Of a stretch of 64,000 bases of DNA, positions 1 to 12,163 are shown piece by piece. Below the pieces are notes generated by a model. It did not search any database. It saw only the letters and a program-made list of their open reading frames with translations, and was not told the origin of the DNA. The DNA comes from Bacillota bacterium (lineage in GTDB: Bacteria > Sysuimicrobiota > Sysuimicrobiia > Sysuimicrobiales > Segetimicrobiaceae), in NCBI GenBank assembly GCA_021324975.1, contig JAJPIA010000085.1, positions 122,006-186,005 of the forward strand. The letters are read 5' to 3'. A program made the translations under genes and the position numbers. The stretch's first letter is position 1. The number at the start of each line of letters is the position of its first letter.

Positions 1-539
1 AAGCCGAGACGCTCGAGCGGAACGATGCGCGGATAGACGACGAGTCGATCCAGGACGCGAACGTCTTGGACCTGGGTCGAGAAACCGAACAGGTCGCCGG
101 CCCGCAGCGTCGCCGGCCCGAATTCCCAGAGCCCGCGGTGAGTACACCGGACACGGTACCGGCGCCGTATGCGCTCGTACCACCGAGGCGAACACAGATG
201 GACGAGCGCGCGCCGCCGGGGCTTGTATGAGCTGGTCAGGTCCGCATCGAGAAATTCGAGTCCTTCTGGGACTTCATCTTCCACCTCCAGCCACGGGAGC
301 GGCAAGAGCTTTCGATTGGTGACCTCGAGCACGAGATCCACTTCCTCGTCAAAAAATGCCCTGCGCTGGCCGAGAATTCGGCGATACGTGACCCCGGTGA
401 AGCACGCCCGCTGCCAGAACCACGAGGCCGATCCGATCAACAGGCCGGTCACCGCGAAGACGAACAGGAGCGCCTGGTGGAACACAGCTCCCAGGACGCA
501 CAGGACCGCCAGGAGCGTCAGCCAGCCTTCGGAAGTCAC
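1..539 (-). CDS. DUF58 family protein, partial (3' end outside window)
   Basis: The frame starts at a GTG that overlaps the moxR stop (GTGA) and runs off the left edge, giving about 179 residues. Two hydrophobic segments lie at residues 6-40, followed by a soluble part with GQRRAFFDEEVDL, VTNRKLLPLPWLEVED and YRVRCTHRGLWEFGPATLRAGDLFGF. These match the beta-rich N-terminal half of DUF58 proteins, which usually carry a vWA-like domain further downstream. DUF58 proteins are typical partners of MoxR ATPases. The 4-bp overlap shows co-translation with moxR, so this gene should also lie under the upstream fluoride riboswitch. The C-terminal half cannot be seen. Confidence 0.82.
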   Translation of the reverse strand, partial: MTSEGWLTLLAVLCVLGAVFHQALLFVFAVTGLLIGSASWFWQRACFTGVTYRRILGQRRAFFDEEVDLVLEVTNRKLLPLPWLEVEDEVPEGLEFLDADLTSSYKPRRRALVHLCSPRWYERIRRRYRVRCTHRGLWEFGPATLRAGDLFGFSTQVQDVRVLDRLVVYPRIVPLERLG

Positions 540-1513
540 GGCCCAAGATGGCCGGAGGGCAGCGGCGCTTCCGCCGGCACTGGAACGCCCGCGATGATCT
601 CACCCATGATCTCCTGGAGGGCGGTCCCACGTAGGCGCGTCTGGCCGGTCGGCAGCAACCGGTGTCCCAGCACCGGGAGCGCGAGTTCCTTGACGTCGTC
701 CGGGAGAACGAACGCCCGGCTCCGCACGGCTGCGAGCGCCTGCGCCGCGCGCCGGAGGGCGAGCGACGCGCGCGGGCTGGCGCCGAGCGCGAGAGAGGCG
801 TGCGACCGCGTCGCCTGCACGAGCCCCACGACGTAGTCGCGCACCGCCGGGGCGACCGTGATGGCGCGCACCGCCTTGACGGCGGCGAGCACGGTCTCTG
901 GATCGGTGCACGGCGCGAGATCGTCGAGCGGCGACGCACGCTCGAAACGATCGAGGATGGCCGCCTCTTCCTCGGCCGTCGGATAGCCGAGCGACAGGCG
1001 CATCAGAAAGCGGTCGAGCTGGGCCTCGGGCAGCGGAAACGTCCCGGCGAACTCGATGGGGTTTTGGGTCGCAAGCACGATAAACGGCCGTGCCAGCGGT
1101 CGCGTTTCGCCTTCGGCGCTGACCTGCCGCTCTTCCATCGCCTCCAGGAGCGCAGATTGCGTGCGCGGCGTCGCGCGGTTGATCTCATCGACCAGCAACA
1201 CTTGGCTGAAGATCGGCCCCGGATGAAACTGGAACGACTGAGTCTCCGGTTGATAGACGGAGACGCCGAGCACGTCGCTCGGCAGGAGGTCGGGCGTGCA
1301 CTGAAGGCGCCGGAACGTTCCGCCGACGCTGCGCGCCAGGGCCTTCGCGAGCACCGTCTTGCCGATGCCGGGCACATCGTCGACCAGGACATGCCCCTCG
1401 CTCAGAAGCGCGGTGAGCAGCAACTCGATTGCCTGCGCCTTGCCCACGATGACGCGGCCGACCTGCTGCTGCACCCGCTGCGCGACGGCGCGCACGTCAA
1501 CGGGCACTTCCAC
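536..1513 (-). CDS. MoxR-family AAA+ ATPase
   Basis: This 325-residue protein is a full-length MoxR AAA+ ATPase. Walker A is DVPGIGKT (46-53), Walker B is LLVDE (106-110), and the sensor-1 region ATQNPIEFAGTFPLPEAQLDRF follows. MoxR proteins act as chaperone-like ATPases that assemble or activate partner complexes, usually with DUF58/vWA proteins such as the one encoded next. The GTG start at 1513 has a GGAGG about 9 nt upstream. The gene begins only 20 nt after an intrinsic terminator that forms the expression platform of a fluoride riboswitch, so expression is predicted to need fluoride. The target of this MoxR-DUF58 pair is unknown. Confidence 0.92.
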   Translation of the reverse strand: MEVPVDVRAVAQRVQQQVGRVIVGKAQAIELLLTALLSEGHVLVDDVPGIGKTVLAKALARSVGGTFRRLQCTPDLLPSDVLGVSVYQPETQSFQFHPGPIFSQVLLVDEINRATPRTQSALLEAMEERQVSAEGETRPLARPFIVLATQNPIEFAGTFPLPEAQLDRFLMRLSLGYPTAEEEAAILDRFERASPLDDLAPCTDPETVLAAVKAVRAITVAPAVRDYVVGLVQATRSHASLALGASPRASLALRRAAQALAAVRSRAFVLPDDVKELALPVLGHRLLPTGQTRLRGTALQEIMGEIIAGVPVPAEAPLPSGHLGP

Positions 1514-1533
1514 CCATCCACCTCCCAGGAACC

Positions 1534-1567
1534 AAAAAGGCTTCTACAGTCGCGTGCTGTAGAAGCC
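1534..1567 (-). terminator. Intrinsic terminator in moxR leader (riboswitch expression platform)
   Basis: On the minus strand a perfect 11-bp stem pairs GGCTTCTACAG (1567-1557) with CTGTAGAAGCC (1549-1539) around a 7-nt loop, followed by TTTTT (1538-1534). It lies between the promoter and the moxR start, so it works as an attenuator. The 5' arm contains GCTTC (1566-1562), which is also the pseudoknot strand of the overlapping aptamer. Aptamer and terminator are therefore mutually exclusive. Confidence 0.88.
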
Positions 1568-1620
1568 ATCGGCCCGCGAGGCATGCGCCTCGGAGGCAGT
1601 TGTGGCGGGCCTCATCGCCC
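1557..1620 (-). ncRNA. Fluoride riboswitch (crcB motif) controlling moxR-DUF58
   Basis: The minus strand starts with GGGCGATGAGGCCCGCC (1620-1604), which matches the 5' half of the Thermotoga-type fluoride aptamer as I remember it. P1 is GGCG/CGCC. The conserved AAC is followed by an extended P2 (GCC 1597-1595 with GGC 1574-1572) that encloses a 6-bp CGAGGC/GCCTCG hairpin with a GCAT loop. Next come CGATG (1571-1567) and GCTTC (1566-1562), which can pair with GAGGC (1613-1609) as the pseudoknot with one G.U pair. A1569 and T1561 match the linchpin A-U pair. The position usually U after P2 is C1571, a deviation. Overlap with the terminator arm predicts fluoride-dependent antitermination. Confidence 0.78.
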
Positions 1621-1649
1621 TCGAGCGCGTTCGACGTCCAGCGTCCCCC

Positions 1650-1730: not shown

Positions 1731-1759
1731 TTGTCGCGGCGTCACTCCGCTGGTATTAT
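1731..1759 (+). promoter_or_regulatory. Sigma-70-type promoter of the Hyf/Ehr-like operon
   Basis: TTGTCG (1731-1736) and TATTAT (1754-1759) are separated by 17 bp. The predicted start is near 1766, about 35 nt upstream of the fluoride aptamer. The -35 box is 51 bp from the divergent moxR -35 box. Confidence 0.72.
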
Positions 1760-1799
1760 TGCCGCGGTAAGAAGCGCGCTCTCATACGGCGCCCGGCTC

Positions 1800-1854
1800 C
1801 TGGCGATGAGGCTCGCCATATAACCGCGTGTTTCGACGCTGATAGCCTCTGCAG
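1800..1854 (+). ncRNA. Fluoride riboswitch (crcB motif) controlling the Hyf/Ehr-like operon
   Basis: The aptamer is close to consensus. P1 is GGCGA (1802-1806) with TCGCC (1813-1817). The conserved AAC (1822-1824) precedes P2, GCGT (1826-1829) with ACGC (1836-1839). TGATA (1840-1844) follows. The pseudoknot pairs GAGGCT (1808-1813) with AGCCTC (1844-1849). The long-range pairs of fluoride aptamers are present: A1806 with T1840, and A1842 with T1850. The pseudoknot strand is also the start of the terminator's 5' arm, so fluoride binding should prevent termination and switch on the downstream genes. Formate-hydrogenlyase-type genes are among those I recall being associated with crcB motifs. Confidence 0.9.
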
Positions 1855-1880
1855 CCTGTTCGGCTCTGCAGAGGCTTTGT
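1844..1880 (+). terminator. Intrinsic terminator, expression platform of the plus-strand fluoride riboswitch
   Basis: AGCCTCTGCAG (1844-1854) pairs perfectly with CTGCAGAGGCT (1866-1876), followed by TTTGTTGCGTTT. The first six bases of the 5' arm are also the pseudoknot strand of the aptamer. From here to the first start codon (1881-2042) I see no ORF or further conserved structure, only the ribosome binding site GGGGAGGTGA just before 2043. Confidence 0.88.
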
Positions 1881-2042: not shown

Positions 2043-2987
2043 GTGGCCGCCCACATGCTCTTCAACGTGATCCAGGCGCTTACGGTCCTGCTCCTATCGC
2101 CGCTCGTCAAGGGAGTTTTGGATCGGTGGAAGGAACGCGTCCAATCGCGCCGCGGGCCGACCATCTGGCAACCGTATCGAGATCTTTGGAAACTTTTCCA
2201 GAAGGACGAGGTGGTTTCTGACCAGAGCTCGTGGATCTTTCGGGCGACGCCCTATGTTGTGTTCACGATGCCGCTCTTCGTGACCCTTCTGATCCCCGCG
2301 CTCACAACATACCCGCTGTTCTTCGCCTTTATGGGGGACATGCTGGGGGCCGGATTTTTGCTCGCGTTCGGCGGATTCTTCGCAGCGCTCGCGGCCGTCG
2401 ACACGACGAATCCCTACGGTGCCATGGGGGCGAGCCGGACCCGAATGGTTGGCTTCCTGGCCGAACCGGTGTTCATCATCGTTTTCTTCACCATCTCGTT
2501 CGTCGCCGGCTCGACGATTCCGTACATCGTCCAACAGCAATGGGTTTCGCCGCCGTCCAACTTCTTTGAGCCTTCGCACGTCCTGATTATGCTGGCCTTT
2601 CTCATGCTCTTACTGGCGGAGGCGGGTCGGATTCCGGTGGACAGCCCGTCCGGCCACTTCGAGCTCGCCATGATCGACGAGTCGAAGAACCTGGAGTACT
2701 CGGGGCGCGGCGCCGCGCTCATGAACTGGGGCGGCGCGATGAAGTTCATGGTACTCCAGCTGGTCTTCCTCAATGTCCTCGTCACGCCGTGGGGTCTGGC
2801 GCAGACTCCGTCACTCGCCGCGGTGATGCTGGCGATTCCGCTCGTATTTTCCAAGATCCTCGTGCTGCTCGCCGTGCTCACGGTCATCGAGTCGTCGCTG
2901 GCGAAGCTGAGGCTTTTCCGCATTACGGAGTTTCTGGGCGCGGCGTTCGTCATCGCGACCGTTGCGATGATCACGCGCATCTTCTAG
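2043..2987 (+). CDS. HyfC/HycD/NuoH-like membrane subunit
   Basis: This 314-residue, multi-helix protein is the NuoH/HycD-type subunit that anchors the peripheral arm to the membrane arm in hydrogenase-like complexes. The family loop is visible as AEAGRIPVDSPSGHFELAMIDE (about 192-213), with E193, D200, H205 and E207, and the N-terminal QSRRGPTIWQPYRDLWKLFQKD is also typical. GTG at 2043 follows GGGGAGGTGA by 4-5 nt. It is the first gene after the riboswitch terminator and heads a tight six-gene operon. It has no redox centre of its own; the family links Fe-S cluster reduction to ion movement. Confidence 0.92.
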   Translation: MAAHMLFNVIQALTVLLLSPLVKGVLDRWKERVQSRRGPTIWQPYRDLWKLFQKDEVVSDQSSWIFRATPYVVFTMPLFVTLLIPALTTYPLFFAFMGDMLGAGFLLAFGGFFAALAAVDTTNPYGAMGASRTRMVGFLAEPVFIIVFFTISFVAGSTIPYIVQQQWVSPPSNFFEPSHVLIMLAFLMLLLAEAGRIPVDSPSGHFELAMIDESKNLEYSGRGAALMNWGGAMKFMVLQLVFLNVLVTPWGLAQTPSLAAVMLAIPLVFSKILVLLAVLTVIESSLAKLRLFRITEFLGAAFVIATVAMITRIF

Positions 2988-3001
2988 TCAAGGAGCGTCG
3001 A

Positions 3002-3679
3002 GTGGTGCAATCAGCGTGGGCGGTGGCGCTCAACGATCTGGCCGGCGGGCTCTTTCTGTTGACAGCCGTCGCACTCGTTGTTGTCCGGCAGGTGCAAGCG
3101 TGCTTGGCGGCGTTCGTGTTGGAGTCCGTGCTGCTCGCCGCTTCGGCGTTCATTCTGGCGGCCGCGTCCGGCATCCCCGACCTCGTCGCCGTCGGCTTGA
3201 TCACGATCGCCGTCAAAGCCGTCCTCCTGCCCTGGCTGCTTCGCGGCACGGTCCCCGAAGAGATCTACACTCGTCGGGAACTGTCACAACTCGTCAATGT
3301 CCCTGCATCGCTCCTGATCGCCCTGGCGCTCACCCTGGCCGCGTATCTCATCGCCGTGCCCCTCGCGCCGGCGCAGGATGCCTTTATCAGGGTCAATCTT
3401 CCCATCGGTCTCGCCGGGCTCTTCATCAGCGCTTTGTCGCTGGTCACGCGTCGCGAGGCCGTCCCGCAGCTCGTCGGGTTGTTGGCCATGGAAAATGGCG
3501 CGTTCCTGGCCGGCGTCTCCATCGCGCCTGACCTCCCGTTGATCGCCGAGTTGGCCGCGTCCTTCGACGTGCTGGTGATCGTCCTCGTCATGGGCATCTT
3601 GACCCGTGCCATTCACGAGCATGTCGGCACGACCGACATCGTCGAGCTTGTGGAGCGAAGCGACGAGGAAGAGCTGTGA
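3002..3679 (+). CDS. HyfE-like (NuoK-type) membrane subunit
   Basis: The protein has about 225 residues, nearly all in hydrophobic helices, with a short acidic tail (ELVERSDEEEL). Length, the motif SGIPDLVAVGLITIAVKAVLLPW and the position between HyfC-like and HyfF-like genes fit HyfE, a fusion related to NuoK/MrpC. AAGGAG at 2990-2995 precedes two in-frame GTG codons at 3002 and 3005, and either could be the start. The next gene overlaps its stop by 4 bp. The role is structural and ion-conducting in the membrane arm. Confidence 0.86.
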   Translation: MVQSAWAVALNDLAGGLFLLTAVALVVVRQVQACLAAFVLESVLLAASAFILAAASGIPDLVAVGLITIAVKAVLLPWLLRGTVPEEIYTRRELSQLVNVPASLLIALALTLAAYLIAVPLAPAQDAFIRVNLPIGLAGLFISALSLVTRREAVPQLVGLLAMENGAFLAGVSIAPDLPLIAELAASFDVLVIVLVMGILTRAIHEHVGTTDIVELVERSDEEEL

Positions 3680-5109
3680 CGCTCATCGTGATCCCGCTCT
3701 TGCCCCTGGCGGCGGCGCTCTGGGCACTGTTCCCGCAGCGAGGGCGCGCTGCCGCCGGAGCGACGATGGCGGCGGCCGCCGCGGCCGCGGGGGCCGCATG
3801 GAGCGTAGCGCTACGGAGCGCCGCCGGCGCTCCCACGGTTGCGATATCTGGATGGATCGCCTGCGACGGTTTGGGCGCGCTCGCGCTCGTGCTCGTGGCC
3901 GGAGTGAACCTCAGCGCCGCGATCTTTTCCTACGGTTACGTGTCGGCCCGCCTTGCGCCCGCGGGATCCCGGGCGGAACGCCGATACTACGTCGACTACA
4001 ATCTCTTCGCCGGCTCACTCCTGCTCGTACCGCTGCTGTCGGAACCCGCGCTCGTCTGGATCGCGATCGAGCTGACGACGCTCCTGTCGGTGTTTCTGGT
4101 CGGGTTCACCCGAACGCGCGGCGCCCTCGAGGCGGCGTGGAAGTACGTCGTCCTTACGCTGATGGGCGCGGCGATCGCTCTCCTCGGGTTTCTCCTCCTC
4201 TATTGGGCGTTGCGGGGCGCGGGAGGCGCCGCGTTCACATGGGATGGGCTCACGGCGGCCGCCCCGCGCATGCCGGCGGGTCTGATGCAGGCGGCCTTCC
4301 TCCTCGTTCTCGTTGGCCTGGGCGCCAAGCTCGGACTCGTCCCGTTGCACACGTGGGTCCCGGATGCGTACCGCCATGCACCGGCTCCGGTCTGCGCGCT
4401 TCTGTCCGGGGCGGAAGCCACGGTCGTGCTCTATGCGATTCTGCGTCTCGTGCCGGTAGCGGCCGGGGTGCCCGGCGCGCACGCTGGGGGCTGGCTCATT
4501 GGCTTTGGACTGCTGTCCGTTGGCGTGGCGGTTTTTCTCATCCTCCAGGCGAGCGACTACAAGCACGTGTTTGCCTACTCGACGATCGAGCACATGGGCA
4601 TCATCCTGGTGGCTGCGGGTCTCGGGGGAGCGCTCGCCTCCTACGGCGCAGCCGCACAGGTGCTTGCGCATTCCGTCACCAAGACATTTTGTTTTCTTGC
4701 CGCGGGGGCGGCCGCGGTGGTGACGCCGCGGCGTGAGATCCAAGGGCTCCTGCGAATCTCGCCGGTTGCCGGCGCGGCGCTGCTGCTCGGAGGGCTCGCG
4801 ATTGCGGGGGCCCCTCCGCTCGCGGTCTTCCTCAGCGAGTTCACGATTTTCCGGGCGGGGTTCGCGGAGCGATACCCGATCGCCGCCGCGCTTCTGGCCG
4901 GGTTTGTCGCCGTTGGATTCTTCGCCGTGATGGCGCATGTGAACCGCGCGGTCTTTGGCCGCGCCGGCGTGCGTAAAGTCATCCCCTTGCCGGGGGCGTG
5001 TGTGTTCGCGCTGGCAGCCGCCTCCGTCCCCGTGTTGTGGCTCGGTGTGTACGTCCCCCGCCCTGTTCTCGGGCTTCTCCATCAGGCGGCGCTGTGGATT
5101 GGGAGGTGA
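3676..5109 (+). CDS. HyfF-like antiporter-type membrane subunit
   Basis: The protein has 477 residues and about 14 predicted helices of the proton_antipo_M family (NuoN/M/L, MrpD, HyfF). The charged residues of the ion path are kept: E132 in IAIELTTLLS, K218 in GLGAKLGLVPLHTWVPDAY, K296 in ASDYKHVFAYSTIEHMG and K336 in AHSVTKTF. The GTG start overlaps the previous stop (GTGA). Retention of these residues shows selection for ion translocation even though the redox subunits of this operon are degenerate. Confidence 0.9.
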   Translation: MTLIVIPLLPLAAALWALFPQRGRAAAGATMAAAAAAAGAAWSVALRSAAGAPTVAISGWIACDGLGALALVLVAGVNLSAAIFSYGYVSARLAPAGSRAERRYYVDYNLFAGSLLLVPLLSEPALVWIAIELTTLLSVFLVGFTRTRGALEAAWKYVVLTLMGAAIALLGFLLLYWALRGAGGAAFTWDGLTAAAPRMPAGLMQAAFLLVLVGLGAKLGLVPLHTWVPDAYRHAPAPVCALLSGAEATVVLYAILRLVPVAAGVPGAHAGGWLIGFGLLSVGVAVFLILQASDYKHVFAYSTIEHMGIILVAAGLGGALASYGAAAQVLAHSVTKTFCFLAAGAAAVVTPRREIQGLLRISPVAGAALLLGGLAIAGAPPLAVFLSEFTIFRAGFAERYPIAAALLAGFVAVGFFAVMAHVNRAVFGRAGVRKVIPLPGACVFALAAASVPVLWLGVYVPRPVLGLLHQAALWIGR

Positions 5110-5116
5110 GAAACGC

Positions 5117-6709
5117 GTGAGCCCTGTAGATCGCGCCGGCGCAAGCCGGACGGGTATCGACGCGCTGGTCAGGGCCGAGTGGCCGGACGTCGCTATTTCG
5201 AGCGACGGCCGCGCGGCGACGATCGCCTGCCCGCCGGAAGCGCTGCGCGGGGTCTGCCGTCGCCTCTTTAGCGACCTCGGATATGCCTTTGGAGGGCTTG
5301 TAGTCGAGGATGCCCAGGCGGTCTGGAGCCTGCGCTACTTGTTCTACAGCCCTCTGGCGGAGCTGGCGCACGTGGTGACCGAGTGCGTCAAGCCCTCCGA
5401 AACGGTGCCGAGCATCAGCGTCGAGGTCCACGCAGCGGACTGGCATGAGCGGGAGGCGGAAGACCTCTTCGGGTTGGGTTTTGAGGGGCATCCACGCCTT
5501 GGGGACTTCGTCCTGCACAACGACGTCTGGCCGGAGAGCGTCGCGCCGATGCGCCGGTCCTTCGACCCCGCGGTGCGTGCGCCGTTGCACCGGCCCGATC
5601 CGAATTGGGCGCCCCTCCGCCTCGTGGATGAACCGGGCGCGTTCCTGATGCCCGTCGGACCCATTTACTCCGATATCACCGAGAGCGCGCTCTTCCTCCT
5701 CGAAACGGTCGGCGAAGACGTCATCCGCGTCTTCCCTCGTCTATTTTACAAATACCGCGCCGTGGAGAAGAACGCCGAAGGACGCAGCGTCGACGACGGG
5801 CTGTTGGTGGCGGAACGATTCGCCGCCACGTCGGCGTTCGCGCACTCGCTCGCCTTCTGCCACGCGGTGGAACAGATCGGCGGGATCGCCGTGCCGCCTC
5901 GCGGGCGCACGCTCCGCATCTTCCTCGCCGAACTCGAGCGGCTGCGGCACCACGTCGCGGCCATCGAAGGGATCTGCGCGTCGACCGCCCTCGCGGTGGC
6001 CGCAAGTCAGGCGGCGATCCTCGAGGAACAACTCTTGCGGCTATCGGGCGCGCTGACGGGCCACCGGTACCTGTTCGGGCTCAACGTGCCTGGGGGACTC
6101 GCACGGGACCTCGAGACGGCGGCGTGCCGGGAAACGGCGGCGTCGGTCGGAACCGTGCTCCACGGATTGTCGCGGCTGCGCGAGATGCTCCGGTTTTCAT
6201 CGAGCTTTCTCGACCGTATCGAAGGCGTCGGCGCGATCGCTGAGCAGGCGGCATTGACGCACGGACTGGTGGGCCCGATTGCCCGCGCGTCGAACGTGGC
6301 GCGCGACCTCCGCCGCGCACAGCCCTACGGAGGCTACGAACAATTCGAGTTTCAGGTGCCGCGGGAGACGACCGGAGACGGCTATGCGCGCCTGCTGGTC
6401 CTCTTCGCGGAGGCGGAGCAATCGACCGGTTTGCTGCGACAGTCGGCGGACCGGTTGTCCGAAGGCCCGGTTCACGTACCGGCGCCGATTCGCGCGGGCG
6501 CCGCCTTCGGATGGTGCGAGGCTCCACTCGGCGCCGCCTTTCACTGGGTGCGGATCGGCGCGGACGGTCGGATCGAGCGATTTCGACCGATCACACCGTC
6601 GTTTGTGAACTGGCACGGCTTTCATCTTGCCGCCGAGAACTTCGCCTTCCAGGATTTCCCGATCATCCTGGCCACCTTCGGCCTCTCGGTCGCGGAGTGC
6701 GATCGCTGA
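5117..6709 (+). CDS. HyfG/HycE-like large subunit lacking NiFe ligands (Ehr-type)
   Basis: The protein has 530 residues. Residues 1-165 form a NuoC-like domain (VHAADWHEREAEDLFGLGFEGHPRL) and 175-530 the hydrogenase large-subunit/NuoD-like domain. The N-terminal motif usually RxCGxCxFAHS reads RFAATSAFAHS, so the two cysteines are A236 and S239. The C-terminal CxxC reads S524-V-A-E527 before CDR. A NiFe site therefore cannot form, as known for Ehr (energy-converting-hydrogenase-related) complexes and NuoD. GTG at 5117 follows GGGAGGTGAG, and longer in-frame starts would lie inside the previous gene. It should pair with the small subunit encoded next. Confidence 0.88.
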   Translation: MSPVDRAGASRTGIDALVRAEWPDVAISSDGRAATIACPPEALRGVCRRLFSDLGYAFGGLVVEDAQAVWSLRYLFYSPLAELAHVVTECVKPSETVPSISVEVHAADWHEREAEDLFGLGFEGHPRLGDFVLHNDVWPESVAPMRRSFDPAVRAPLHRPDPNWAPLRLVDEPGAFLMPVGPIYSDITESALFLLETVGEDVIRVFPRLFYKYRAVEKNAEGRSVDDGLLVAERFAATSAFAHSLAFCHAVEQIGGIAVPPRGRTLRIFLAELERLRHHVAAIEGICASTALAVAASQAAILEEQLLRLSGALTGHRYLFGLNVPGGLARDLETAACRETAASVGTVLHGLSRLREMLRFSSSFLDRIEGVGAIAEQAALTHGLVGPIARASNVARDLRRAQPYGGYEQFEFQVPRETTGDGYARLLVLFAEAEQSTGLLRQSADRLSEGPVHVPAPIRAGAAFGWCEAPLGAAFHWVRIGADGRIERFRPITPSFVNWHGFHLAAENFAFQDFPIILATFGLSVAECDR

Positions 6710-6746
6710 TGCGGCGGCGGCGGCGGTCCCCAAGGAGATATGCGCC

Positions 6747-7508
6747 ATGAGCAACTGGGTGATACGCGGTCTCAGGACGCCGGTTCCCACGACGCGCTTT
6801 CCGGCCGCGCCGGAACGGGCACGGGGGGCGTCTCCAGGTATGCCCCGCGCCACCGTGCTTCCCGAGGAGGTCGCGGCCGATCTCGCGCGCCGCTGCCCCA
6901 CGGGGGCACTCGCGGCGCACGGCGAACGCGTTGTGGTCGATCCGGCACGCTGTGTGCATTCGTTTCGGTGCGTCCGCGGCGTCGCGTCGCCGATGGATTG
7001 GAACCATGGCAACGAATGGGCCGCGCCGCGCGGCACGGACGCACGACCATTCGGCCCGCTCGGGGCGGCCTTCCGTGGGTCGGCGCATATCCTCGTCGTC
7101 GACGCGGGCGACTGCGGCGCGTGCCTCGCCGAGGTGAAGCACCTCAACAACCCCTACTACAACATGCACCGCCTGGGGTTCTTCGTCACACCGACCCCGC
7201 GCAACGCGGATATCCTGCTGGTCGTTGGATCAGGCACCGTGAACATGCGGTGGGCGCTCCGCAAGGCCTACGAGGCGATGCCCGCACCGAAGCGGGTGGT
7301 GGCCGTGGGCACCTGTGCCCTGACCGGGAGCGTGTTTGCGCCGAGCTTCGCGTCGGATGCCGGGATCCACGACCTTCCTGTCGATGTGGCGGTACCGGGA
7401 TCGCCACCGCCCCCCCTCGCGATCCTCCACGGCCTGCTCCTCGTCACCGGACGCGCCCCGGCGGCCCGAAGCGGGTCGGGCCTCGTGGATACAGCTAAGG
7501 CAGACTGA
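6747..7508 (+). CDS. HyfI/HycG/NuoB-like small subunit with degenerate ferredoxin domain
   Basis: The protein has 253 residues. An N-terminal ferredoxin-like part keeps C50 (RCPTGAL), C69 and C75, but the middle cysteine of CxxCxxC is S72 (CVHSFRC). The NuoB-like part has the first two ligands in DCGACLAEV (C123, C126) and the third in VGTCALTG (C190). The fourth, normally VPGCPP, is S219 in VPGSPPPP; the codon is TCG at 7399-7401. The proximal 4Fe-4S cluster is thus short of one cysteine, as is the ferredoxin site. ATG 6747 has AAGGAGAT 7 nt upstream. Serine ligation or altered clusters remain possible. Confidence 0.88.
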   Translation: MSNWVIRGLRTPVPTTRFPAAPERARGASPGMPRATVLPEEVAADLARRCPTGALAAHGERVVVDPARCVHSFRCVRGVASPMDWNHGNEWAAPRGTDARPFGPLGAAFRGSAHILVVDAGDCGACLAEVKHLNNPYYNMHRLGFFVTPTPRNADILLVVGSGTVNMRWALRKAYEAMPAPKRVVAVGTCALTGSVFAPSFASDAGIHDLPVDVAVPGSPPPPLAILHGLLLVTGRAPAARSGSGLVDTAKAD

Positions 7509-9652
7509 TGATGGCGCTCAATGTGCTGGCCGCATCGTTCCTGACCGCGTGCGCAGCCGGGGTGATTGCCAGCGCCACCCTCCCCGATCGGCGTGTTCCG
7601 GCGGTCCTGGCCTGCACCGGGTCCGCGATGGCAATGATGCTCATGGCGATCGGGCTCACGGTGCTCGCGACCGGCCATCTCTGGTCCGCCACGCTGTGGA
7701 CCGTAGCCCCGTTTGGCGCACTGACGCTGGAAGTGGACCGGCTGGCGGCCGTGTTTATCACGGCTATGGGACTGGTATGCCTGCCCGTGTCGCTTTTCTC
7801 CGCCGGTTATTTGCTCCGCTATCTCGGCCGGTACAGCCTCCGATCGTTCGGCATCCTCTACCACGGCCTGCTCGCGGCGATCGCGCTCACGCTCGCCACC
7901 TCCGACGTCCTTGCGTTCCTGCTCGCCTGGGAGGCGATGGCGATCCTGAGCTACTTCCTCGTGAACTATGAACACGAGCAACGCGAGCACACGCACGCAG
8001 GGTACTTAATGCTCGTGATGGGCGAGGCCGGAACGGTCGCAGTGATGGTCGCATTCCTCCTGCTCATCAATGCGGCCGGCGGCCTCCCGTTCGCTGCGCT
8101 GCGACACGCGGCCGCCACAGCGGGCGTTCAGACGCGCTGGGCCGTCTTTCTGTTGTCGTTCTTCGGGTTCGGCGTGAAGGCCGGGCTGTTACCGGGCAGT
8201 TCCTGGCTTCCGCGCGCCCATCCGGCGGCGCCGGCCAACGTGTCGGCCGTGCTGTCCGGCGTGATTCTGAACCTCGGGCTCTACGGCATCATCCGCGTGA
8301 ACCTGGATCTCCTGCCGGCGCACTTGGTCGGCCCCGGCATAGTGGTGTTGGTCGTCGGCAGCCTGTCGGCCCTCGTCGGCATCCTCTACGCAACGACCCA
8401 GAACGACCTCAAGGCGATGCTGGCGCACAGCTCCATCGAAAATATCGGGATTGTGACCGCGGCGTTGGGCGCCGGGCTGGTCTTCGGGGCTTCCGGGGAA
8501 GCGACCCTCGCGAGCATGGCCTACGTCGCCGCGCTGTATCACATGGTGAATCACTCGGCCTATAAAGGACTCTTGTTTCTCGGTGCAGGCGCGGTCGACG
8601 GGGGCGCGGGGGAGCGTCACATGGATCGACTCGGCGGTCTCATCCGACGCATGCCTTGGACAGCCATGTTCTTCCTGGTCGGCGCGCTCGCCATCGCCGC
8701 GATGCCGCCGTTCAACGGGTTTGCCAGCGAATGGCTCACGCTGCAGACCCTGCTGCGCAGCGTCGAGCTCCACGCGACGGCGGTCAAGATCGTCTTCGCA
8801 CTGTGCGGCGCGGCCCTCGCCTTGACGGCGTCGCTCGCGGCGACCTGCTTTGTGAAGACCTTTGCGATGAGCTTCCTGGGGTTGCCCCGTTCAGGCGCCG
8901 CCGGGTCCGCGCACGAAGCGGCCCCTACCGCGCTGGCGGCCATGGGGATCCTGGCGGCGGTGTGCCTCGCGCTCGGCATCCTGCCGACTTACACGATCCC
9001 CGCGCTGAGCGGCGCCGTGGCGCCGCTGACCCACGCGAGCGCCGCGGACGCCCTCGTTCCGTCGTTCTTCGCGCCCGCAACGCCGGGGCACGCCCTGCCC
9101 GCGTCATTCGTAGCCGACTTTCGCACGCTTGGAGCGCAGGTCGGCCGGCACCTGCTGCCGGGCCGCGGGCTCATCGTATTGCTTCGCGGCGGGACCGATA
9201 ACCCGGTCGTCTTCGCGATGTCGACCAGCTACGCGTTCCCAGTGCTTCTGGGGCTGATCGGACTTGTCTACCTGGCCGTCCACGTTGGGACCCGAGCCCG
9301 CACGCTCGCGCGCCGACCGCGATGGGACGGCGGCGTGCCGCGGCTCGACCCGGAAATGACGTATACGGCCACCGGATTCTCCAACCCCGTCCGGGTCGTG
9401 TTCAATGCCGTCTTCCATCCATCCATGGCGGATGACACTACGGAGGTGGTGGCGGAGCACTTTCGGACGGCCGTTCGACGCGCGCGCGTCGAGACATACG
9501 TGGCCGACCGGTTTGTCGCTGATCCCCTCGCCGGTTGGTCACACGGCCTCGCCCGCGCGCTCGCGGCGATGCACCGCGGCGGCCTGAACACGTACGCGGC
9601 GTACGTGCTCCTCACGCTGCTGTTGGTCCTGGTGGCCGCGCGGTTGCTGTAG
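7508..9652 (+). CDS. HyfB-like antiporter-type membrane subunit
   Basis: The protein has 714 residues, about 14 antiporter helices plus a long C-terminal part with a last helix, as in HyfB/HycC/NuoL. Ion-path residues are present: E142 in AWEAMAILSYF, K224 in FGVKAGLLPGSSWLP, K302 in TQNDLKAMLAHSS and K353 in HSAYKGLLF. ATG at 7508 overlaps the previous stop by 1 bp (TGATG), and it is the last gene of the operon. Together with the HyfF-like subunit the complex has two antiporter-type subunits. The following 166 bp (9653-9818) lie between convergent genes and show no clear terminator. Confidence 0.9.
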   Translation: MMALNVLAASFLTACAAGVIASATLPDRRVPAVLACTGSAMAMMLMAIGLTVLATGHLWSATLWTVAPFGALTLEVDRLAAVFITAMGLVCLPVSLFSAGYLLRYLGRYSLRSFGILYHGLLAAIALTLATSDVLAFLLAWEAMAILSYFLVNYEHEQREHTHAGYLMLVMGEAGTVAVMVAFLLLINAAGGLPFAALRHAAATAGVQTRWAVFLLSFFGFGVKAGLLPGSSWLPRAHPAAPANVSAVLSGVILNLGLYGIIRVNLDLLPAHLVGPGIVVLVVGSLSALVGILYATTQNDLKAMLAHSSIENIGIVTAALGAGLVFGASGEATLASMAYVAALYHMVNHSAYKGLLFLGAGAVDGGAGERHMDRLGGLIRRMPWTAMFFLVGALAIAAMPPFNGFASEWLTLQTLLRSVELHATAVKIVFALCGAALALTASLAATCFVKTFAMSFLGLPRSGAAGSAHEAAPTALAAMGILAAVCLALGILPTYTIPALSGAVAPLTHASAADALVPSFFAPATPGHALPASFVADFRTLGAQVGRHLLPGRGLIVLLRGGTDNPVVFAMSTSYAFPVLLGLIGLVYLAVHVGTRARTLARRPRWDGGVPRLDPEMTYTATGFSNPVRVVFNAVFHPSMADDTTEVVAEHFRTAVRRARVETYVADRFVADPLAGWSHGLARALAAMHRGGLNTYAAYVLLTLLLVLVAARLL

Positions 9653-10877: not shown

Positions 10878-11588
10878 CTATCCTCCCCCGAGCTTGCCCA
10901 CGAGAACCGGAGCGGCCGAGGGACGCGCCGCGCCGTTTGGCCCGCGCTCGACAGAAATCGCCACGGCCTGATACCGCGGGAAATCGGCCCCCACGGCGAC
11001 GATGACCGGAGTCCCGGACGATGGACGAAACACCCCGGCGCTATGCGGCGCGGCCCCGGCCACCAGCCACAACTGATACACGAGGTCGGAACCCGGGTTT
11101 CGCAGGCCCGTGGCGACCAGCGCGCCCCGGCCGGTGGCCGGATCGAACACAAACCGGACGCGGCCGCCGGCGGATCCGCTCAGCGTGACCAGGCGCGAAG
11201 CCGGGTCGGCCAGCAACGCCAGCGCCTGGGTCTCCGAGTCGACGCGGGCCGTGAGCGCTCCGAGCCGCTGCTCGAGCGACAGCGCGACGCCCGCAAGCAC
11301 GACGATGAGCGCCGCGGCGGCCGCGAGCGCCGCGGTCCAGCCCACGCCGAGGGCGCCGGTTCGCCGGCGGGACCGTACGGCGTCGAGAACGCGGCGGCGC
11401 AGCGCCGCTGGCGGCTCCTCGGGGGCGAACCCGATCGCGAGCGACGCGGCGGCGTCTTCGAAGACACCAAGTTCCCGCTGGCATTCGGCGCAGGTCGCCA
11501 GGTGCGCCTCCACGTCCCGCGCGTCCTCGGGCGCAAGCGCGTGGAGAGCGTAACCCGGAATCGATTCCCGAATCTCGTCGTGGGTCAT
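10878..11588 (-). CDS. RskA-like anti-sigma factor
   Basis: The protein has 236 residues. The N-terminal zinc-binding anti-sigma motif is H29-x3-C33-x2-C36 (EAHLATCAECQ), a transmembrane helix spans about 82-104, and the outer C-terminal domain (FDPATGRGALVATGLRN, YQLWLVAGAAPHSAGVF, AVAISVERGPNG) matches RskA, the anti-sigma K family. It should hold the partner ECF sigma factor at the membrane until an outside signal triggers proteolysis. ATG 11588 overlaps the sigma stop (ATGA), showing co-translation. A longer in-frame extension lies within the sigma gene and is rejected. Confidence 0.9.
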   Translation of the reverse strand: MTHDEIRESIPGYALHALAPEDARDVEAHLATCAECQRELGVFEDAAASLAIGFAPEEPPAALRRRVLDAVRSRRRTGALGVGWTAALAAAAALIVVLAGVALSLEQRLGALTARVDSETQALALLADPASRLVTLSGSAGGRVRFVFDPATGRGALVATGLRNPGSDLVYQLWLVAGAAPHSAGVFRPSSGTPVIVAVGADFPRYQAVAISVERGPNGAARPSAAPVLVGKLGGG

Positions 11589-12163
11589 CGCGCGGTCTCC
11601 GGTGCCGGTGCGGGCAGGACGGATCGCAGGCGCAGAAGCCCGTCCCGGATGCGCGTCTTGATGGTGCCGAGCGGAACGCCCAAGCGCTGGGCGATTTCCT
11701 GCTGTGTGTATCCGCCGTAGTAGGCGAGCACGAGGGCGACGCGCTGCTCGGCCGACAGCGCCTCCAGCGCTCGCCGCACGTGGCCGGCGTCCACGCGGGC
11801 CTGGGCCTCTTCGATGACGTCCACGTCGCCCGCGATCGTGTCCGACAGCGGGACGGTCGGGCTTCGCCGGGCCCGCCGGACGGCGTCGACACTCTTGTGG
11901 TGCGCCACGGACAGAATCCAAGTCCGCGCGCTGCCGCGCGCCGGATCAAACGCCCGCGCCCCCCGCCAAATCGCGAGAAAGACGTCCTGGGTGACCTCTT
12001 GGGCCCGTATTGTGTCCCTGAGCATACCCATGGCTATCGAGTACGCGGGGCCGCTGTAGCGTGCGTAGAGCGCTTCAAAGGCCTCCGGGTCCGCCTGTGC
12101 GACCCGCGCCAGAAGCGCCTCATCGTCCCCGGCGTTGAGCAGTGAGACCGTGCTCCCCCTCAT
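11585..12163 (-). CDS. ECF RNA polymerase sigma factor (SigK-like)
   Basis: The protein has 192 residues. The sigma-2 region lies at about 25-93 (FEALYARYSGPAYSIAMGMLRD, VTQDVFLAIWRGARAFDPARG, ARTWILSVAHHKSVDAVRR) and sigma-4 at 128-180 (LSAEQRVALVLAYYGGYTQQEIAQRLGVPLGTIKTRIRDGL). The neighbouring RskA-like anti-sigma gene points to the SigK/ECF19 group. Possible targets are the divergent CAATCC/GCGAAT-type sites at 16195-16262, upstream of the first gene of this operon, which would make it self-reinforcing. Confidence 0.93.
   Translation of the reverse strand: MRGSTVSLLNAGDDEALLARVAQADPEAFEALYARYSGPAYSIAMGMLRDTIRAQEVTQDVFLAIWRGARAFDPARGSARTWILSVAHHKSVDAVRRARRSPTVPLSDTIAGDVDVIEEAQARVDAGHVRRALEALSAEQRVALVLAYYGGYTQQEIAQRLGVPLGTIKTRIRDGLLRLRSVLPAPAPETAR

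Follow-up and report, generated by a model that had tools for sequence, protein, structure and literature searches.

The window, by which we mean the whole 64,000-nucleotide stretch of DNA that was analysed, contains an ehr operon of six genes (2043-9652, plus strand), all of them open and arranged in the order C-E-F-L-S-B (Table 1). Ehr complexes (Coppi 2005; Marreiros 2013) share a common set of subunits (L, S, HycD-like, and antiporter-like) and have no NiFe ligands; they are known in the literature, where their function is stated to be unknown (PMC6349859, PMC10284858, PMC6688271, and PMC6728331).

Table 1. Features of the ehr operon and of the divergent operon beside it, in window positions
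Feature	Position	Strand	Evidence
DUF58 protein, truncated at the window edge, the rest lying at L110 11313-12545 in the same genome	1..539	-	PF01882
MoxR-family AAA ATPase, leading gene of the divergent operon behind the second fluoride riboswitch	536..1513	-	PF07726
Intrinsic terminator overlapping the second aptamer, TTTTT tail	1539..1567	-	fold z -5.1
Second, divergent fluoride riboswitch, heading the MoxR-DUF58-DUF4129 operon	1553..1628	-	32.7 bits, just below gathering; R1 model 48.8
Sigma-70-like promoter TTGTCG-17-TATTAT for the ehr operon	1731..1759	+	pattern match only, 9/12, extended -10
Fluoride riboswitch aptamer RF01734 heading the ehr operon	1793..1858	+	Rfam 35.4 bits (gathering 34); R1 model 49.4 bits
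Terminator-like hairpin, putative expression platform (fluoride = ON)	1844..1876	+	fold of 1838-1886, -24.7 kcal/mol, z -3.6
ehrC, HycD/NuoH-like membrane subunit, GTG start	2043..2987	+	PF00146, 111 bits
HyfE-like membrane subunit, start uncertain	3038..3679	+	NF008556, 63.6 bits, under its cut-off
HyfF-like antiporter-type subunit; E132, K218, H332, K336, E388 conserved	3676..5109	+	PF00361, residue conservation
ehrL, large subunit resembling NuoC-NuoD/HycE, lacking NiFe and quinone ligands	5117..6709	+	translation, alignment, domain search, AlphaFold model mf7201a308033
ehrS, half-ferredoxin domain fused to NuoB-like subunit; C72S, C219S	6747..7508	+	domains, alignment
HyfB-like antiporter-type subunit; E142, K224, H349, K353, E408 conserved	7508..9652	+	domains, residue conservation

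The aptamer that heads the ehr operon ends 185 nt upstream of ehrC, and inspection revealed the pseudoknot GAGGCT/AGCCTC within it. The 3' strand of the pseudoknot, AGCCTC, doubles as the 5' arm of the terminator-like hairpin, which is followed by the T-rich stretch TTTGTTGCGTTT. With a score over the gathering threshold, the pseudoknot, and the overlap with the terminator, the element meets the criteria for RF01734. Such an overlap is the layout of a transcriptional switch predicted to be turned on by fluoride; fluoride binding and the effect on expression are both inferred from sequence alone. When 22 aptamers were compared, the three aptamer helices, including the pseudoknot, were 94% paired, and both sides changed in 11 of 13 pairs, far more than in shuffles and slid controls. 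The 4.4 Mb host genome contains just four fluoride riboswitches, all of them within a 6 kb island next to the ehr operon (C10:117906-123863), where they head MutS-like, MFS, MoxR, and ehr units.

Two of these units are recorded here as side observations. The operon coding for MoxR, DUF58, a membrane protein, and DUF4129 (window 536-1628, minus strand; L110 9743-13519) lies behind its own riboswitch with a textbook terminator; the literature on fluoride riboswitches that we consulted does not list operons of this type among the fluoride-response genes. A tandem pair of ATPases with MutS domain V (MutS-like; L110 4756-7886, minus strand) also lies behind a fluoride riboswitch, and similar pairs recur in other fluoride islands.

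Ligand sites and channel residues of the subunits

EhrL is 530 amino acids long, translated from a GTG start, and consists of a NuoC-like N-terminal domain (PF00329, 58 bits) fused to a Complex1_49kDa domain (PF00346, 142 bits). Among solved structures, its closest relative is E. coli HycE (7z0s_E, E = 1.6e-50), which was also the best match of the AlphaFold model (pLDDT 86, TM 0.86); 6u8y_L was another of the PDB matches. In architecture and fold, EhrL is like the large subunits of formate hydrogenlyase (FHL) and hydrogenase-4 (HycE, HyfG). In the alignment with HycE, the four ligand positions C241, C244, C531, and C534 correspond to A236, S239, S524, and E527. Among 73 aligned family members, cysteine occurs at these positions in 2, 1, 1, and 0 sequences, respectively, and the usual residues are A/S/N, T/S/A, S, and E. 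The replacements are themselves conserved, S524 in 72/73 members and E527 in 73/73. Since cysteine is nearly absent and S524 and E527 are conserved across the family, a sequencing error in the ligand codons, which would have refuted the prediction, is excluded. No alternative NiFe-binding cysteines were visible in the EhrL alignment: C528, which adjoins E527, is unconserved and is mostly asparagine in relatives, and C287 is conserved but is a cysteine in HycE too, and both were therefore rejected as replacement ligands. The original prediction, that a full-length large subunit with a fused NuoC-like domain has all four NiFe cysteines replaced (A236, S239, S524, E527), thus held exactly, and neither of its refuting conditions (alternative cysteines, sequencing errors) was borne out.

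The quinone ligands of complex I are missing as well, the binding histidine and tyrosine being replaced by T188 and A237. The canopy aspartate (canopy residues are described in PMC9474812), D529 in HycE, is G522 in EhrL and glycine in 43/73 members. E189, the equivalent of the HycE proton donor E193, is present in 68/73. Hydrogenases have a C-terminal extension that is cut off in maturation; according to the alignment, EhrL ends at R530 without one. HypD was not found in a search of the host genome. The same genome keeps two other NuoD genes, and complex I respiration is therefore supplied elsewhere. We conclude that EhrL cannot bind NiFe through the known ligands and is without the quinone ligands of complex I. 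It is not a group 4 [NiFe] hydrogenase or FHL subunit (both CxxC motifs, the maturation extension, and HypD are missing), nor is it a complex I NuoD.

The small subunit has lost ligands too, a point that the original prediction had missed. The N-terminal half-ferredoxin of EhrS contains a CP cysteine and a CxxCxxC motif, a known ferredoxin topology that suffices for one 4Fe-4S cluster. In the window protein, C72S (CVHSFRC) and C219S (VPGSPPPP) leave three cysteines at each of the two cluster sites. The half-ferredoxin cysteines are complete in 73/76 fluoride-type EhrS proteins, the exceptions being the window protein (C72S), L048 (Cys to Ala), and L090 (domain missing from the alignment). The fourth cysteine of the N2-type site is replaced in 43/76 (25 Asn, 6 His, 4 Ala, 3 Ser, 2 Gln, 2 Phe, and 1 Gly); of the four N2 cysteines, none is left in Mycobacterium branderi and one in L090. 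A complete N2-type cluster, as found in ordinary Ehr, is accordingly not present in the window (S219). Thus, the cluster sites of the window EhrS are incomplete, and the N2 site is eroded in the clade.

A glutamate at EhrL position 288 occurs in 39/41 members without the fourth N2 cysteine versus 1/29 members with it; the residue is Asp in M. branderi, which has no N2 cysteines, and Ala (A288) in the window. The association is strong, but it is uncorrected for descent and largely one lineage, and the window has A288, so Glu288 as a replacement N2 ligand is no more than noted here.

The membrane subunits present a different picture. The proton-channel residues of HyfF and HyfB (Table 1) are 93-100% conserved in the fluoride Ehr family, and 92-100% conserved when the EhrC acidic residues E141, E193, and E218 are included. 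The antiporter-type proton-channel residues are thus intact in fluoride Ehr, as in antiporter-like subunits of Mrp or complex I. H179 of EhrC is invariant in a 65-sequence family and is found in both divergent fluoride members checked; the position is not His in any of four non-fluoride sequences checked. Relative to complex I (NuoCD, NuoB, NuoH, NuoL/M), fluoride Ehr consists of homologous modules with conserved proton-channel residues, but it has no NADH module and carries T188/A237 in place of the quinone His/Tyr.

Riboswitch linkage and phylogeny of the clade

A set of 79 related loci was fetched by EhrL protein similarity alone; most of them are metagenome bins, and taxon names are those given with the records. 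The upstream region was present, and a riboswitch could be assessed, in 62 loci but not in the other 17. A local covariance model, built from 22 aptamers taken partly from these same loci, gave 114 matches in 1.2 Mb of fetched loci, and a fluoride riboswitch was found ahead of the ehr operon in all 62 assessable cases. In 58 operons, the aptamer was located on the same strand no more than 1 kb upstream of ehrC; the remaining four (L041, L055, L056, and L088) have it ca. 1.9-2.1 kb upstream, with a dynamin-like gene (three loci) or phosphoesterase and enolase genes (one locus) in between. The unmodified Rfam model, applied at its gathering score, detected an aptamer in 15 of 16 scanned loci that held the upstream region, and the sole exception, L022, scored 45.5 bits with the local model. 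From the density in the window's own genome (four per 4.4 Mb), a match in a given 1 kb is expected by chance about once per thousand. We conclude that a predicted fluoride riboswitch accompanies the ehr transcription unit in the whole clade. The genes that recur nearby, those for enolase, Fluc, DUF190, and PPase, are known to belong to the fluoride response. As a side observation, dynamin-family GTPases were repeatedly found behind fluoride riboswitches (L041, L055, L056, and others), sometimes in one operon with ehr.

Relatives from plasmid records with ca. 27-36% EhrL identity served as controls. A fluoride riboswitch was present in all four plasmid loci with the gene order C-E-F-L-S-B (M. 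branderi, L112; Burkholderia multivorans, L113; B. cenocepacia, L117; and Caballeronia, L125), and the annotated neighbours in the first three include enolase, inorganic diphosphatase, DUF190, dynamin, and MFS genes. No riboswitch was found in nine ordinary Ehr loci with other gene orders (L115, L116, L118-L122, L126, and L127), in three true FHL/Hyf loci (L114, L123, and L124), or in the one outlying Ehr locus (L128).

In a maximum-likelihood tree, the fluoride Ehr proteins formed a single clade (support 99/98; recovered in 100% of 200 bootstrap trees) whose sister group was ordinary Ehr; FHL and NuoD fell on the opposite side. The branch uniting fluoride and ordinary Ehr was supported at 98/94; the root was placed by midpoint only, and the position of M. 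branderi depends on a long branch. The clade covers about 12 phyla. With L and S subunits, HycD- and antiporter-like subunits, no NiFe ligands, and a position among Ehr proteins, the complex is a member of Ehr. It differs from ordinary Ehr in forming a separate clade, in the order C-E-F-L-S-B, in the small subunit fused to a half-ferredoxin, in the degenerate N2 site, and in the riboswitch; the nine ordinary loci examined keep all four N2 cysteines and have no riboswitch. The original assignment of EhrL as an Ehr-type large subunit was therefore upheld by domain, alignment, and tree evidence, as was the warning against annotating it as FHL subunit 5 or NiFe hydrogenase, but that reading was incomplete, having missed a distinct Ehr clade under fluoride-riboswitch control.

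Two control loci call for separate mention. The outlying Ehr L128 (G057:C116) has a half-ferredoxin small subunit in which the N2 cysteines are all gone (STGDNAADLEI, VGAGA, IPGDPP); as it has no riboswitch, cluster loss is not limited to the fluoride clade. In L121 (Variovorax sp. PBL-E5 plasmid 3), there are two adjoining Ehr-type operons; the small subunit of one is of the 4Fe-4S type, and the other operon is ordinary.

Weinberg 2010 (PMC2864571) reported that the crcB motif precedes "formate hydrogen lyase" genes, and a 2024 review citing Baker 2012 (PMC11139923) read fluoride-linked FHL as a shift towards anaerobic fermentation. These are, in all likelihood, the same genes as those of fluoride Ehr. 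On the literature's reading, fluoride would induce a genuine formate hydrogenlyase or hydrogenase for anaerobic fermentation, and the naming of FHL among crcB-motif genes in both papers and the relationship to HycE speak for this. Against it, the NiFe ligands are lost across the 73-member alignment, and, unlike in FHL and hydrogenase-4, there is no maturation extension, formate dehydrogenase, or Hyp gene; fdhF, HycB, HycH, and HycI are absent from the ehr operon, and the three true FHL/Hyf loci examined are without the riboswitch. This explanation can be all but ruled out. The label "formate hydrogen lyase", in use since 2010, is wrong for the fluoride Ehr clade, which has no NiFe site. That fluoride Ehr is neither a hydrogenase nor a step of formate fermentation is shown as far as the missing site is concerned; its activity is inferred.

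A second alternative is that the operon is a relic, drifting towards a pseudogene after loss of the active site. Ligands are indeed lost at several sites, and Geobacter Ehr is treated as nonfunctional in PMC13194489. However, the six genes are open, EhrL retains 46-67% identity and many invariant residues between distant phyla, and regulation by the riboswitch is strictly kept. We consider decay highly improbable.

Proposed function of fluoride Ehr

According to PMC11139923, HF entering the cell lowers its pH and depletes the proton-motive force that fluoride export requires; an induced H+ or F- pump would therefore make physiological sense. By a modest margin, and by inference without any experiment, we favour the view that fluoride Ehr is an ion translocator, induced by fluoride, that counters fluoride/HF stress by moving H+ and/or F-. 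In this view, rising cytoplasmic fluoride would stabilise the aptamer and keep the overlapping terminator from forming, which would switch on production of a membrane complex of six subunits with the build of FHL or complex I. HF diffusing into the cell would release H+ and F- in the cytoplasm, and the complex would move H+ and/or F- outward, restoring pH and proton-motive force. The drive is undecided: it may be provided by electrons passing via the small-subunit clusters to a non-H2, non-canonical site, or by an ion gradient already in place, with no redox chemistry. The retained half-ferredoxin speaks for electrons, and the N2 losses speak for a gradient. There is no direct sequence evidence for F- transport by the complex.

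One concrete version of the translocator view is a redox-driven proton pump, in which reduced ferredoxin or another soluble donor would feed the half-ferredoxin cluster and then the N2-type site, an unknown acceptor would occupy the old NiFe/quinone cavity, and H+ export would rebuild the force lost to HF influx. It is supported by the near-universal half-ferredoxin cysteines, by the new conserved cavity residues S524 and E527 together with E189, and by the intact channel residues. Since the half-ferredoxin cluster is kept in 73/76 proteins, redox or cluster chemistry probably still plays a part in most of the clade. On the other side stand the replacement of the fourth N2 ligand in 43/76 proteins and the more extensive losses in M. 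branderi and L090, the three cysteines at each site of the window EhrS, and the change of the canopy Asp to Gly. In addition, clustering of the neighbourhoods of related loci revealed no conserved electron-donor or formate dehydrogenase gene beside the operon. On balance, we lean slightly against this version.

In a redox-free or redox-gated transporter, the old catalytic arm would be structural or regulatory, and H+ or Na+ would be exchanged for F- (or HF/cations). Mrp antiporters exchange ions on an existing gradient without redox chemistry. Both Mrp and the Mbs/Mbx complexes of Pyrococcus (group-4-type without hydrogenase function, or antiport) were compared with fluoride Ehr only via 6u8y_L. 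Repeated N2 decay and NiFe/quinone loss alongside intact antiporter subunits favour such a transporter, as do the lack of Fluc and of a fluoride-type CLC in the host (below) and the invariant H179 of EhrC, absent from the four non-fluoride sequences. The nearly always retained half-ferredoxin cluster, the presence of Fluc in about half of hosts, and the MFS protein behind another of the genome's fluoride riboswitches, which is just as good a candidate for the exporter, count against it, and we regard it as no more than possible. The same caution applies to a bolder reading, a complex I-superfamily machine without any redox reaction that acts as a fluoride (or HF/H+) exporter. If true, this would be a new class of fluoride transport, and the ion-translocating arm of complex I would be naturally separated from electron transfer.

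The link between Ehr and fluoride, of which no published account was found in the open-access literature searched (one elsewhere is not excluded, and priority is uncertain), joins two puzzles: Ehr complexes, which are widespread and of unknown function, and "formate hydrogen lyase" as a major target of fluoride riboswitches. If it is true, one Ehr clade gains a testable physiological role in fluoride/HF resistance, the shift-to-fermentation reading of the fluoride literature needs correcting, and a naturally redox-depleted relative of complex I becomes available for asking what drives the antiporter arm.

A search of the host genome revealed no Fluc (PF02537), and its only CLC has the chloride-type motif GREGP rather than GREGT/V; a recognised fluoride exporter, either of the Fluc fold or a CLC with GREGT/V, is thus missing. 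Fluc is present in 26/50 genomes that host fluoride Ehr. The complex is therefore not simply the missing fluoride exporter, and the proposal that fluoride Ehr replaces Fluc is unsupported.

An MFS transporter (L110 8215-9746), ca. 2.3-3.8 kb upstream of the window start, lies directly behind the genome's strongest fluoride riboswitch, and similar MFS genes recur in islands L041, L055, L077, L098, L112, and L113. It is a candidate for a fluoride exporter in a genome without Fluc or a fluoride-type CLC. Finally, judged only by inspection of the sequence, the window at 10878-12163 (minus strand) carries a gene for an ECF-type sigma factor (11585-12163) followed by a zinc-finger anti-sigma-like gene.
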